DNA of 64,000 nucleotides from Roseovarius sp. MMSF_3281. GTDB taxonomy: Bacteria > Pseudomonadota > Alphaproteobacteria > Rhodobacterales > Rhodobacteraceae. A program made the translations under genes and the position numbers. The DNA is taken from positions 124,001-188,000 of the forward strand of contig NZ_JASHIM010000003.1 in assembly GCF_030733685.1 (NCBI RefSeq). Direction: 5' to 3'. This document shows, piece after piece, positions 50,022 through 59,528 of this stretch. Position 1 is the first letter of the stretch; the number at the start of each line of letters is the position of its first letter. The notes below the pieces were generated by a model. The model was not told where the DNA came from. It made no database searches and saw only the letters and a program-made list of their open reading frames with translations.

Positions 50022-50046
50022 GGAACAAACCGGCCAGCGCTGCGTT
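50022..50046 (+). promoter_or_regulatory. Sigma-EcfG promoter of csbD
   Basis: GGAAC (50022-50026), 16 bases, CGTT (50043-50046): an exact match to the alphaproteobacterial general-stress promoter. Transcription would start near 50053, 30 bases before the csbD ATG. Confidence 0.8.
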
Positions 50047-50082
50047 TCTTTCCCAAGATGATGAAACAGAAAGGAGTTCGTC

Positions 50083-54432: not shown

Positions 54433-54457
54433 AACGCGCCCGCGAAGGGGTTGTTCC
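54433..54457 (-). promoter_or_regulatory. Sigma-EcfG promoter of the DUF883/YqjE operon
   Basis: On the minus strand GGAAC (54457-54453), 16 bases, CGTT (54436-54433): an exact match. Confidence 0.8.
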
Positions 54458-54504: not shown

Positions 54505-54530
54505 GGAACTTTTCGGCGCATTCGCGGGTT
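54505..54530 (+). promoter_or_regulatory. Sigma-EcfG promoter of the DUF1328 gene
   Basis: GGAAC (54505-54509), 17 bases, GGTT (54527-54530). Transcription would start about 30 bases before the ATG at 54567. Confidence 0.65.
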
Positions 54531-54883: not shown

Positions 54884-55705
54884 CTACCCGTTAAGCAATG
54901 TCTCGGTACTGGTGAAAAACATCGCTTGGCTTACCGCGGACAGCACCTGATCCTCGGAATAAGGCTTGGTGATCAGGAAAGCAGGCTCAGACCGCTCCCC
55001 TGTCAAAAGGCGTTCCGGGAACGCGGTGATGAAGACCACCGGGACATCGCCAATCTCGTCAAGAATATCCTTCACCGCATCAATGCCCGAGGATTTATCG
55101 GCCAGCTGAATGTCGGCAAGGATCATATCCGGCGGGTCTTTGCGTGCCAATGCCACGGCCTCGTTGCGGGTGCGGGCATTGCCGGTCACGCTGTGGCCCA
55201 TGCTTTCGACGATGGCCGTGATATCCATCGCGATAATCGCCTCATCCTCGATCACCATGACACGCCCACGAATATCGCCCGACATCTCGCGCCGTGCGAT
55301 CGACAAAAGCTCGCTGGCCTCTTCCCGGTCCACATCCAGGATGGCCGCGATCTCGCTGGTTTGAAACCCCTCGACACTATGCAAAAGCAATGCCTCGCGG
55401 GTGTTCGGCGTTAGCCTGGACAACCGAAGCTGCGCTTGCGATTCCGCGCCGCCCTCGCCGGGTTCGTCCTCAACCGGGGCACCGGACGACACCCAGATGC
55501 GGTGAAAGGCCCGAAAGAGCGCCGCACGCGGGCCCAGATCCTGGCGGAAATCCCCCTGATCGACCAAAAGCGCCTCCAGCGTCGCAGCCGCGTAATGATC
55601 CCCGGTTTTCTGACTTCCTGTCAGAGCACGCGCATAGCGGCGCAAAAACGGCAACTCATCGCCAACGGCTTGCGCAAGATCTGGGGTGGTGTGGGTCTCT
55701 GTCAT
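54884..55705 (-). CDS. phyR: General stress response regulator PhyR (sigma-like domain plus receiver)
   Basis: A 273-residue PhyR. Residues 1-140 form the EcfG-like sigma-mimic domain (DELPFLRRYARALTGS and LRLSRLTPNTREALLLHSVEGF). The receiver follows with acidic Glu153-Asp154, phosphoacceptor Asp198 (MILADIQLAD) and Lys247 (ITKPYS). When phosphorylated, the sigma-like domain captures NepR and frees EcfG. GAGGACT before ATG 55705 fixes the start over a longer frame to 55780. It is divergent from nepR-ecfG and shares a promoter dyad with it. Confidence 0.96.
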   Translation of the reverse strand: MTETHTTPDLAQAVGDELPFLRRYARALTGSQKTGDHYAAATLEALLVDQGDFRQDLGPRAALFRAFHRIWVSSGAPVEDEPGEGGAESQAQLRLSRLTPNTREALLLHSVEGFQTSEIAAILDVDREEASELLSIARREMSGDIRGRVMVIEDEAIIAMDITAIVESMGHSVTGNARTRNEAVALARKDPPDMILADIQLADKSSGIDAVKDILDEIGDVPVVFITAFPERLLTGERSEPAFLITKPYSEDQVLSAVSQAMFFTSTETLLNG

Positions 55706-55735: not shown

Positions 55736-55767
55736 GGAACCAAACGCCGACAAGCGTGTTAGGTTCC
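55736..55767. promoter_or_regulatory. Two interleaved divergent sigma-EcfG promoters
   Basis: Plus strand (nepR): GGAAC 55736-55740, 16 bases, TGTT 55757-55760. Minus strand (phyR): GGAAC 55767-55763, 16 bases, CGTT 55746-55743. The -35 and -10 elements are placed symmetrically about 55751.5, so both promoters share the same 32 bp. Confidence 0.8.
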
Positions 55768-55789: not shown

Positions 55790-55993
55790 ATGTTCAAGGA
55801 TGGCAGAAAAATCGGTTCAATGGCAAACAAACGCAGGACTTCCCGCTTGGAGCAACAAATAGACGATAACCTTCGGCGCGTCTACGCCGACACGGCGAAC
55901 GAACCCTTGCCCGAGCGGTTCACGCAGTTGCTCGATAGATTGCGCGATCAAGAACAAGACAAATCCGACAAGTCGTCGGAGGATGACGCGTGA
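55790..55993 (+). CDS. nepR: Anti-sigma factor NepR
   Basis: A 67-residue NepR: core EQQIDDNLRRVYADTANEPL followed by PERFTQLLDRLRDQ. It sequesters EcfG until bound by phosphorylated PhyR. ATG 55790 is taken, but ATG 55820 (ANKRRTSRLEQQ) is possible; neither has a strong ribosome site. Its TGA overlaps the GTG start of ecfG (GTGA). Confidence 0.93.
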   Translation: MFKDGRKIGSMANKRRTSRLEQQIDDNLRRVYADTANEPLPERFTQLLDRLRDQEQDKSDKSSEDDA

Positions 55994-56544
55994 CCAAATC
56001 CACAGATCCTAAAGAAGAAATTGTTGAGCATTTGCCAGCCATGCGCGCCTTCGCCATGAGCCTGACACATAACTCTGCCACGGCCGACGACCTGGTTCAG
56101 GATGCGATCGTGAAGGCATGGGGCAATCTCGACAAGTTCCAGCCCGGTACCAATTTGCGGGCCTGGCTTTTCACGATCCTGCGGAACACATATTATTCGC
56201 TCTACCGCAAGCGCCGCCGCGAGGTAGAAGACCCCGATGGAACGATGGCCGGGCAAATGTCGGAAAAACCCGAACACGATGGCCACCTTGCGATGACTGA
56301 TTTCCGCCAGGCCTTCGCGAAACTGACGGACGAACAGCGCGAAGTTCTGGTTCTGGTCGGGGCCGAAGGATTCAGCTACGAAGATGCCGCTGAAATGTGC
56401 GGATGTGCTGTCGGGACCATCAAAAGCCGCACCAACCGCGCCCGCAAACGCCTTGCTGAATTGATGCAGATTGACGACGACGATGAACTCGAAATGACGG
56501 ATGCCGCCACCATGGCCGTCGTTCAAGGCACCTCTTCTGCATGA
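55990..56544 (+). CDS. ecfG: General stress sigma factor EcfG
   Basis: A 184-residue ECF sigma factor. Region 2 includes [18 protein letters not shown] and [15 protein letters not shown]; region 4 includes [22 protein letters not shown] and [18 protein letters not shown]. The start is GTG, overlapping nepR, which enforces balanced synthesis with its anti-sigma factor. It is followed after an ATGA overlap by the kinase gene. It should recognise the GGAAC-N16/17-nGTT promoters found around it, including its own. Confidence 0.95.
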
Positions 56545-58283
56545 CAACACCACCCGCTCCACCGCGGCGCAGACTGCGGCCGGGATTGGCGATACAGCTC
56601 GCCTTCGTCCTTAGCATGGCGATACTTCCGCTCGGCCTGATCTCGGTTTACCAAACCAACAAGGTTTTGGAGGACCGCAAGGAACAGTCCAAGGCCGCCC
56701 TCTTGGAACGCACCCAAGAGGCCGCTTCCGAAAGCCGCGAATTGATCCGCGCGGCCGTGGGGGCAGCCGAAACTCTTGCCGTGCAAATGCCGACATTACT
56801 GTCCCAGGCCGAAACCTGCGCAACCATTATGTCAAAGCTCGTCGAGCGCTCCGAAAGCTTTGCTTTCGCCGGTTACCGGGACAATGAACAAGGCGTTATC
56901 TGTGCCTCCGAACAATTCGGCACCGACGACGGCAACAAACTGGATGCCCTGCCGGCGCTCGAAAAGAACCAACAGGAAGTTCTTATGCTGCCGCTGGAAT
57001 TTCTTGGCGGCATCGCAACCTTTAGCGTAACAGTGCCCGTCGTCGAACAGGGCCGCTTTCTCGGGACAGTCTGGATCGTGGTCCCCGTTTCGGCGCTCAA
57101 TAGCGCGCTGTCGCGCACCGGTGAAAACGTCGATCTCGTCCTGTTTCAAAACCAAGGCGAAATCATCGCGACCGAAGATTTTTCCGAAGAGCGGCGCTCG
57201 GTCCTGCCAGCCGACATGAACCTTCAAGATCTCGCCATCATCGGGCGTCAGACCTTTCGCACCCAGAACCGCGAGGGCCAGCAACGCGATTTCGCAGTCT
57301 CCGCCATCCTCAATGACCGCGTCTTCGCCTTGGGAAGCTGGATGCCCCAGGGCCAGGGTATCGCCCTGCCCGCCTATCAACACCTTTTGGCCCTGTACTT
57401 CCCTATCGCGATCTGGATCATCGCCATCATCGCGGCCTATGTCGGGGTGCACCGTCTGGTCATCCGGCATCTCCGGCGGCTTCGCCTGTGGATGCGCGCC
57501 TATGCCAGTGACAGCGGCGCCAACCTCGACAAGGCCCGCCTCAGGGGGGCACCCGAAGAAATCGAAGTGCTTGCCGAAACCCTGCGCGCCATGACCCGCC
57601 GCCTGTCCGAACAGGATCGCCGCCGCGAAGAGGACCTGCAGGAAAAAACCGTCCTTCTGCGCGAGGTCCACCACCGGGTCAAGAACAACCTGCAACTGAT
57701 CTCCAGCATGATGAACATGCAAATCCGCGCCACGGATAGCGACGAGGCCAAGAATGTCCTGCGCCGGGTGCAGGATCGGGTCATGGCCCTTTCGGCCATT
57801 CACCGCTACCTCTACCTTGCGCGCAAACTGTCGATGCTGCGTGCCGATAAGCTACTCGAAGAGATCATCCAGCAACTCGTGATCGTCGGCACACTGGAAG
57901 AATCCGACCAGAAAATCAGTGTCTCGACCCAACTCGACAAGGTGGAAATCAATCCGGACCAATCCGTGCCGCTTTCGCTTTTGGCCACCGAGGCGGCGAT
58001 GAACGCGGTCAAATACTGCGGCGTGACCTCCGAAGGGGAAGCATGGGTAAACATCGCCCTGAAACTTCAAGAAAACGGCGACCTTTGCCTAAGCATCGTC
58101 AATTCCTGCGCACAGGCCGACAACCCGGAGACCCGGATCGAAAGCTCTGGCCTCGGCTCGCGCCTCATTCGCTCCTTTGCCACGCAGTTGAACGGCACAC
58201 TCGAAACCAGGGACTTGCCCAACCGCTACGAGCTTCACGTGGTTTTCCCCTTGGCATGGCATGACGACTCCAGCGACGATTGA
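56541..58283 (+). CDS. HisKA_2-type membrane sensor kinase, probable PhyR kinase
   Basis: A 580-residue kinase: a transmembrane helix at about 16-38, a periplasmic sensor domain of about 240 residues, a second helix at about 281-303, a HAMP-like linker, then the HisKA_2 dimerisation motif [15 protein letters not shown] (His377/His378) and an ATPase domain with [11 protein letters not shown] and SSGLGSRLI. This kinase class phosphorylates PhyR in related bacteria. Co-transcription with nepR-ecfG supports that role here. The signal is unknown. Confidence 0.92.
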
Positions 58284-58295
58284 TGTGATTTTCGC

Positions 58296-58320
58296 GGAAC
58301 CTTCGCGCGCGTTGCACGTT
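58296..58320 (+). promoter_or_regulatory. Sigma-EcfG promoter of the entericidin-like gene
   Basis: GGAAC (58296-58300), 16 bases, CGTT (58317-58320): an exact match, ending 30 bases before the ATG. Confidence 0.8.
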
Positions 58321-58350: not shown

Positions 58351-58491
58351 ATGCTACGCACTCGTATTTCCCTACTTTCGCTTTTGGCCTTTGCCTTCGT
58401 TTCCGCATGCGAGACGATTGAAGGCGCGGGCCAAGACATCGAAAACGCCGGCGAGTCGATTTCCGACACCGCTGAAGAGGCCGACAGCTAA
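58351..58491 (+). CDS. Entericidin-like small lipoprotein
   Basis: A 46-residue lipoprotein precursor: LRTRISLLSLLAFAFVSAC with a lipobox ending at Cys20, then ETIEGAGQDIENAGESISD. This is the layout of the entericidin EcnA/EcnB family, bacteriolytic or membrane-stress lipoproteins under stress sigma control in enterics. GGAGG precedes the ATG. Confidence 0.88.
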   Translation: MLRTRISLLSLLAFAFVSACETIEGAGQDIENAGESISDTAEEADS

Positions 58492-58767: not shown

Positions 58768-58885
58768 CTAAAGCGTTTCGCGAAAAACCTGAATCACAGA
58801 TTTTCGCGAAACGCAGTGCTCGGCTCAATCGTGGCACGCGTTCCGCCTTTCGCTGATGCCTCAGGTTAAAGGCGGAACGCTTTAG
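58768..58885. repeat. Composite palindromic element with 10-bp terminal inverted repeats
   Basis: Outer ends CTAAAGCGTT (58768-58777) and AACGCTTTAG (58876-58885) are perfect inverted repeats. Inside are two hairpins: a 14-bp stem GCGTTTCGCGAAAA / TTTTCGCGAAACGC (58773-58786, 58801-58814) and a 13-bp stem GCGTTCCGCCTTT / AAAGGCGGAACGC (58838-58850, 58868-58880). It has the look of a small non-autonomous mobile element. The exoD stop codon lies in its right end. Confidence 0.7.
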
Positions 58886-59466
58886 AACAACACGACAAGA
58901 CCCCCGGCAATGGCCGCTGCAACAAGCAGCCCGATCATGACCAACAGGCCGTCGCCCATGAATATACCGGTCGTAAGAACCGCGATGATCGCTCCGGCAA
59001 TGGACGATGAAAACGGGATTACTTCCAACACCGGCATGATCGCCCCAAGGCCAAAGCAAATCCCTTGCGGAAATCGCACCACGGGCGGCGTTACCAGTCC
59101 GTGAAGCCTCCTTTGGGTCACCCGGTCCAAGCACCGCACGGGCCGCATCAGCCATGACATGCCTTTGCGCGCCTTATGTGTTGCGACGCTTGCCCGACGC
59201 ACCCATCCCGGCAACCAAAGCTTTGGACGTTCCATCATTTGCTGAAGGCTGACGATGGCGATCATGAGACCGCAGACAGTGGTAAACCCCGGCACCCCGC
59301 TCAGCGGTGAGACCAACGCCAAAGCCGGCAACAGGACAAGCGGCGTATAACTGGCAACACCCAGCGCCTCGACCAGTTCACCAATGCTCATCGTGTCGCC
59401 GTTCAACGCGCGCTGCGCGTCACGAAGGACATCACTCGCCGTTTGAGGATGAACTGTGGCTGTCAA
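58882..59466 (-). CDS. ExoD family membrane protein
   Basis: A 194-residue membrane protein of the ExoD family (SIGELVEALGVASYTPLVLLPALALVSPLSGVPG). It has four or so helices in a Gly-rich core (FGLGAIMPVLEVIPFSSSIAGAI). Rhizobial exoD mutants are exopolysaccharide- and alkali-sensitive; the molecular role is unclear. The start is taken at TTG 59466 with GGAG six bases upstream, because the longer frame to 59505 would run into the promoter element. It ends inside the composite repeat. Confidence 0.82.
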   Translation of the reverse strand: MTATVHPQTASDVLRDAQRALNGDTMSIGELVEALGVASYTPLVLLPALALVSPLSGVPGFTTVCGLMIAIVSLQQMMERPKLWLPGWVRRASVATHKARKGMSWLMRPVRCLDRVTQRRLHGLVTPPVVRFPQGICFGLGAIMPVLEVIPFSSSIAGAIIAVLTTGIFMGDGLLVMIGLLVAAAIAGGLVVLF

Positions 59467-59503
59467 AGAAAACTCCGGTCGGCTTGGAACGTCATCCTTG
59501 CAC

Positions 59504-59528
59504 AACGCCTTCGCCGCAGATTGGTTCC
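59504..59528 (-). promoter_or_regulatory. Sigma-EcfG promoter of exoD
   Basis: On the minus strand GGAAC (59528-59524), 16 bases, CGTT (59507-59504). Transcription would start near 59497. Confidence 0.75.

Follow-up and report, generated by a model that had tools for sequence, protein, structure and literature searches.

Interlocked EcfG-type promoters between phyR and nepR-ecfG in Roseovarius sp. MMSF_3281 and its relatives: a probable bidirectional promoter

Overlapping divergent promoters form a general class in which polymerases compete sterically and in which the two sides usually answer to separate regulators. In Alphaproteobacteria, divergent EcfG promoters have been described at the same genes as those considered here, in the same divergent order and with both units autoregulated; according to the accessible text of these papers, both units usually depend on EcfG, their co-regulation probably keeps the stoichiometry, and the consensus reads GAAC/GGAAC-N16,17-C/GGTT (PMC4814048, PMC8103513). 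EcfG-dependent phyR promoters have been reported in other alphaproteobacteria, as far as the available sections tell (PMC4814048, PMC7083833). Bidirectional sigma70 promoters are also close to the present case: in the open portions of two reports, pseudo-symmetric DNA accepts the polymerase in two orientations, one at a time, mRNAs are often driven, and one symmetric -10 is shared, with starts commonly 18 (10, 23) bp apart (PMC12825309, PMC10268837). For the overlapping promoters of this type, the accessible part of PMC12825309 states steric exclusion, reports that at none of the five promoters tested was basal activity high enough for competition, and mentions neither "ECF" nor "sigma factor".

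The window analysed here is the whole stretch of 64,000 nucleotides taken from Roseovarius sp. MMSF_3281. In this window, the Pfam matches delineate a PhyR-NepR-EcfG locus, with phyR divergent from nepR-ecfG and an HWE/HisKA_2 kinase present (Table 1). Between phyR and nepR-ecfG-kinase, at 55736-55767, there is a 32-base site, GGAACC-A-AACG...TGTT-A-GGTTCC, made of two opposite EcfG-type promoters, GGAAC-N17-GTT on each strand. A first-pass annotation, made from the letters of the window, had placed GGAAC at 55736, its mirror GTTCC at 55763 and each -10 within the spacer of the other promoter; the letters confirmed the four elements and their overlap, and 2 bases separate each -35 from the opposing -10. 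The spacing of 16 bases that it gave holds if the -35 is written GGAACC, whereas the spacer from GGAAC to GTT has 17 bases; a pattern search of the window missed the site with N16 and found it with N17. The halves of the dyad match the published consensus quoted above (-35 GGAAC, 16-17 bases, C/GGTT), the reverse one fully, as GGAAC-N16-CGTT, and the forward one, GGAAC-N16-TGTT, with a -10 off by one letter; relatives mostly carry CGTT instead of this TGTT. As for the exactness of the dyad, also claimed at first, the four boxes are indeed symmetric about 55751.5, and they share this mirror point because the spacers are equal; but equal spacers force symmetry on any opposite promoter pair, so exact symmetry was dropped as evidence. 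The letters that match across the mirror are GGAACC-x-AAC-x-C, and the inner core has no match. The information lies in the overlap of the promoters and in the 2 bases that part each -35 from the -10 of the other, not in the symmetry.

Table 1. Promoter elements, genes and neighbouring EcfG-type matches in the window (positions of the window; promoter functions are predicted)
Feature	Position	Strand	Remarks
-35 GGAACC, nepR-ecfG promoter	55736..55741	+	GGAAC = 55736-55740
-10 CGTT, phyR promoter	55743..55746	-	GTT = 55745-55743; sits in spacer of forward promoter
12-base core common to both spacers	55746..55757	.	outer bases are part of the extended -10 boxes
-10 TGTT, nepR-ecfG promoter	55757..55760	+	GTT = 55758-55760; sits in spacer of reverse promoter
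-35 GGAACC (minus strand), phyR promoter	55762..55767	-	GGAAC = 55767-55763
phyR, sigma-like domain and receiver, anti-anti-sigma factor	54884..55705	-	Pfam PF22029, PF22233, PF00072
nepR, anti-sigma factor	55790..55993	+	start 55790 or 55820; Pfam PF18557
ecfG, ECF sigma factor	55990..56544	+	Pfam PF04542, PF08281
HWE/HisKA_2 sensor kinase	56541..58283	+	overlaps ecfG end; Pfam PF07568, PF07536
Second divergent EcfG-type pair, one half	54433..54457	-	back to back with the other half, 47 bases between
Second divergent EcfG-type pair, other half	54505..54530	+	
EcfG-type promoter match near entericidin gene	58296..58320	+	
Entericidin gene	58354..58491		PF08085
EcfG-type promoter match near ExoD gene	59504..59528	-	
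ExoD gene	58882..59505		PF06055

Other EcfG-type matches lie in the same window. The second divergent pair would serve a DUF1328 gene and one resembling DUF883_C at a score below the Pfam cut-off, and, as its promoters are not interlocked, it stands in contrast to the dyad. Furthermore, the entericidin and ExoD genes, each with an EcfG-type match, look like a small stress-regulon cluster beside the locus.

We consider it quite probable that the dyad is one bidirectional promoter of the EcfG RNA polymerase, with two exclusive orientations, acting as a feedback node for the whole partner switch; at the level of the sequence, an EcfG-driven bidirectional promoter is a well supported reading. Since two interlocked EcfG-type promoters lie between phyR and nepR-ecfG, the same holoenzyme should transcribe both units, their EcfG dependence being taken from what is published on the family and not from this locus. 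The EcfG holoenzyme would bind in either orientation: rightward firing (-35 at 55736, -10 at 55757-55760) would lead to nepR-ecfG-kinase and leftward firing (-35 at 55767, -10 at 55746-55743) to phyR; the start sites are predicted to fall immediately beyond either end of the dyad, at a distance of about 34 bp. In either open complex the polymerase would cover the -35 of the other promoter and melt it, which would leave room for one orientation at a time; we infer this mutual exclusion of polymerases on steric grounds. A single site would be in this way a positive-feedback node for all the parts of the partner switch, and competition would split the EcfG polymerase between the two sides, in a ratio set by the two half-promoters. 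A benefit of exclusion for the feedback is hypothetical, and the low basal activity of the sigma70 cases suggests that exclusion may matter only during strong induction. It has also been considered, as an unlikely proposal, that competition of the two half-promoters for a single binding event of the same holoenzyme would hold the firing ratio of phyR to nepR-ecfG constant whatever the EcfG level, and that the interlock was selected to keep this proportion. In an algebraic treatment with invented rate constants, the ratio at a shared site was independent of EcfG, even at saturation, and that of two separate promoters drifted. If the proposal were true, the anti-sigma and anti-anti-sigma factors would be kept proportional through positive feedback.

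The exact register occurs once in its own genome; the sole other interleaved dyad there, at 50022-50053 of the window, has 2 mismatches. In the sample of the order, 54 of the 292 genomes, from 29 of the 112 genera, carry the exact register, and a control pattern read backwards was present in none. Among the 372 genomes of the class sample it was found in 2, namely that of the window and one other (backwards control, 0), and outside the family of the window in 1 of 367. The 54 genomes of the order hold 55 exact dyads, 54 of them beside a phyR match and 53 also beside ecfG; the remaining one (G109) lies inside a reading frame that, judged by eye, is ABC-ATPase-like, and was set aside as chance. 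A scan of named genomes, a set that overlaps the unnamed sample of the order, gave at least 119 stretches with the 18-letter version of the pattern, and among the matches listed 118 of 119 adjoin phyR and/or nepR-ecfG. The carriers include Roseovarius sp. EGI FJ00037, of the same genus as the window, and Cereibacter ovatus, Cereibacter changlensis and Cereibacter johrii; R. sphaeroides we take to belong to Cereibacter. In Bauldia litoralis, a member of another order, an interleaved dyad is flanked by a receiver-only regulator and by a hybrid histidine kinase (L338, 5637-5668). By arithmetic, 18 fixed letters should match about 4 times by chance in 257 billion bases, so an independent origin in this species is suggestive only and chance would also account for it. 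The possibility that the dyad is a general trait of the EcfG regulon was dropped, because the exact dyad is single in its own genome and the nearby divergent pair is back to back; elsewhere the dyad is found almost only at phyR/nepR-ecfG. From these sequence comparisons, the interlock is an old and conserved feature of one order, almost confined to the phyR/nepR-ecfG spot.

NepR (PF18557) was found in 194 of the 292 genomes, and the best-scoring listed places were fetched (L033-L181, 149 loci, own genome excluded), a collection that covers the better-scoring NepR places and leaves out the genomes with lower-scoring NepR. Together with the dyad places and L002, the own-genome place with two mismatches, they made 161 loci, 160 of them anchored. 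A divergent phyR was present in 153 of the 160; the kinase was left out of the scoring, as were the 7 anchored loci with no phyR match next to them. Of the 153, 11 had entered through the dyad or the window; the other 142 had been fetched by NepR alone. Among these best-scoring NepR-fetched divergent loci, 105 of 142 were interleaved, 12 nested and 25 without an overlapping pair, and 50 of the 55 genera had at least one interleaved locus. Loss of the symmetry in relatives keeping the gene order would have gone against the first-pass annotation; these counts did not refute it, and the conservation of the dyad is stronger than first claimed. An interleaved call admitted at most one mismatch per promoter, and 94 of the 105 loci had none; their spacers were 17/17 in 45, 18/18 in 42 and mixed in 18. 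The five genera without an interleaved locus comprise one with 15 loci, two with one locus each and two nested genera. That one genus supplies 15 of the 25 loci without an overlapping pair; in 9 of the 15 there was no reverse match even with one mismatch, and in the other 6 a reverse match with one mismatch was present. In the class (28,18,18), with 9 rows, only L095 has the full GTTCC and was scored nested; the other 8 were scored none, as were two rows with separate promoters. Exact opposite pairs, taken across the 153 loci, have 2 and 2 bases between each -35 and the -10 facing it in 91 cases, and gaps of -3 and -3 in the 12 nested loci, which belong to one clade and have each -10 inside the opposing -35.

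Across the 153 divergent loci, exact GGAAC-N17/18-GTT was present in the intergenic stretch in the forward direction in 145 and in the reverse direction in 123; of 306 length-matched coding stretches taken from these loci, 8 contain such a match on one strand or the other. Both boxes were scored in 118 loci, forward only in 27, reverse only in 5 and neither in 3; forward boxes outlast reverse boxes. This imbalance is in line with the view that only the nepR-ecfG promoter works, the reverse match being a by-product helped by the AAC within GGAAC. So are data from R. sphaeroides, where, in the available text, phyR mRNA did not follow ecfG mRNA and no phyR start was named (PMC5830050). Nevertheless, that AAC inside the -35 is used by the 12 nested loci only, and the 105 interleaved ones need a separate full reverse set. 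Furthermore, the conservation of letters that played no part in the selection extends to the reverse side. It should be noted that the loci of the logo were sorted by GGAAC and GTT, and the invariance of those letters is partly by construction; the sixth -35 base, not among them, is C in 0.80/0.97 of forward and 0.83/0.88 of reverse promoters, and the base before GTT is C in 0.64/0.64 and 0.79/0.76, respectively (genus-weighted fractions for the 17/17 and 18/18 sets). Letters unused in the selection are kept alike on both sides. With the EcfG-dependent phyR promoters of other alphaproteobacteria mentioned before also against it, a solely forward function is distinctly unlikely. The bases immediately flanking the dyad are rich in purines on the reverse side (0.62-0.93) and more weakly so on the forward side (0.50-0.85), as raw fractions with no background control.

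Alternatively, a dimeric regulator might use the inverted repeat as its operator, or the repeat might be transcribed into a hairpin, and some relatives do have 12-base arms that are perfectly complementary. However, for the inner mirror pairs 13 to 16 complementarity does not exceed the expectation across genera, and for pair 13/20 of the 17/17 set it even falls below; small excesses of mirror pairing were seen at pairs 6/27 and 11/22 of the 17/17 set and 7/27 and 11/23 of the 18/18 set. In addition, the predicted transcripts would start outside the dyad, which argues against a hairpin. About six inner positions of the core are nearly random across genera and carry almost no information. A nearly random core with no clear inner mirror pairing is the signature of two promoters and not of a hairpin or a dimer operator, and we regard the latter as extremely unlikely.

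On a FastTree tree of PhyR+EcfG for the 153 loci, in which 46 of the 150 inner branches are open and the change counts are therefore approximate, the label interleaved, nested or none changed 8 times. The nested form arose once (12 loci, support 99), adjoining interleaved lineages, and parsimony gave 23 changes between the 17/17 and 18/18 spacer states. Both spacers change together because a single indel in the shared core shifts both, as the interlock predicts. These data bear on another explanation, concerned with why the dyad is kept and not with what it is, namely that two ordinary autoregulated EcfG promoters overlapped in an ancestor and the register was kept by descent, with the exclusion functionless; an indel in a gap spoils one promoter, and one in the core shifts both. 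We give it about an even chance. An interleaving that is old and rarely changed is what it expects, as are the frequent indels tolerated by both promoters (17 to 18 in the core), and the sigma70 promoters had, at five cases, too little basal activity for competition in the accessible text (PMC12825309). Against it, the nested clade moved to another overlapping register and not to separate promoters, and a nested pair next to nepR is seen in three loci of a family, f13, from outside the order. As the AAC within GGAAC is complementary to GTT, a 5-base deletion in an interleaved dyad gives GGAAC-N17-GTTCC with both promoters kept; because one such deletion turns interleaved into nested, the nested clade is weak evidence for selection. 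The register of the interlock could be kept by lock-in through descent rather than by selection for exclusion.

Outside the family of the window, 46 loci were fetched. In 10 of them, from six families, the -35 boxes near nepR stand back to back with 6-9 bases between (L183, L191, L193, L194, L195, L197, L198, L203, L208 and L216), unlike the interlocked dyad, and this distance is nearly constant across the six families. In several others the exact pairs are wider apart or absent, and the nested form is present in five. The nested GGAAC-N17-GTTCC lies upstream of nepR-ecfG in the f13 loci L186, L188 and L200; a CHASE-HWE kinase gene is divergent from it in L186 and L188, so that the other half of the pair there faces a different stress-pathway gene.

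Transcript data exist for R. sphaeroides. In the available text of PMC5830050, membrane stress raised ecfG mRNA in a PhyR-dependent way and not phyR mRNA, oxidants raised phyR mRNA 2-3 fold and not ecfG mRNA, and the dRNA-seq account names a promoter upstream of nepR and a kinase start and none for phyR. These results speak against a simple co-induction, unless further promoters drive phyR or its mRNA differs in stability. A genome that is probably that of R. sphaeroides, with a nepR of 68 codons (counted by eye) as in the accessible part of PMC5830050, has a dyad with perfectly complementary 12-base arms; given the unequal mRNAs, symmetric letters do not guarantee symmetric output. The linked transcription of phyR and nepR-ecfG predicted at first is partly supported, by the interlocked EcfG-type promoters but not by these mRNAs, which rose under different stresses.

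The claim that such a device was undescribed has to be narrowed, as EcfG control of both units (PMC4814048, PMC8103513) and exclusive bidirectional sigma70 promoters (PMC12825309) are published, to judge from the open text of these papers; what stands is the geometry. In the literature within reach, mostly outside subscription journals, we found no description of interlocked EcfG promoters and no paper joining EcfG, "bidirectional promoter" and "general stress response". For Rubellimicrobium thermophilum, the accessible text of PMC12148442 reports consensus-based promoter prediction at its two GSR loci, and its authors may have met the overlap there.

The known kinds to which the site seems to belong are thus bidirectional promoters and divergent general-stress-response promoters, and what would be new is an interlocked ECF version. 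It shows the general feature of bidirectional promoters, the overlap of elements of both directions, since each -10 is within the spacer of the other promoter; it lacks the single shared symmetric -10 of the sigma70 type, as 12 bases lie between its GTT boxes. Unlike the sigma70 type, it would use an ECF sigma factor that is also among its own products; it has a complete -35 on either side and a -10 of its own for each direction, placed next to the -35 of the other promoter, and its starts are predicted to be some 34 bp from each other. Such ECF sites can arise easily, because the complement of the -10 is already contained in the -35 box. In partner-switch stress responses the three proteins have to stay in proportion, with all of them under positive feedback, and an interlocked promoter conserved across many genera would be a compact and mutable object in which to test whether exclusion sets this proportion. 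The dyad would extend the idea of the bidirectional promoter from sigma70, with a shared -10, to an ECF sigma factor, and, compared with the general class of overlapping promoters, a single sigma factor, itself encoded there, should govern both of its halves.
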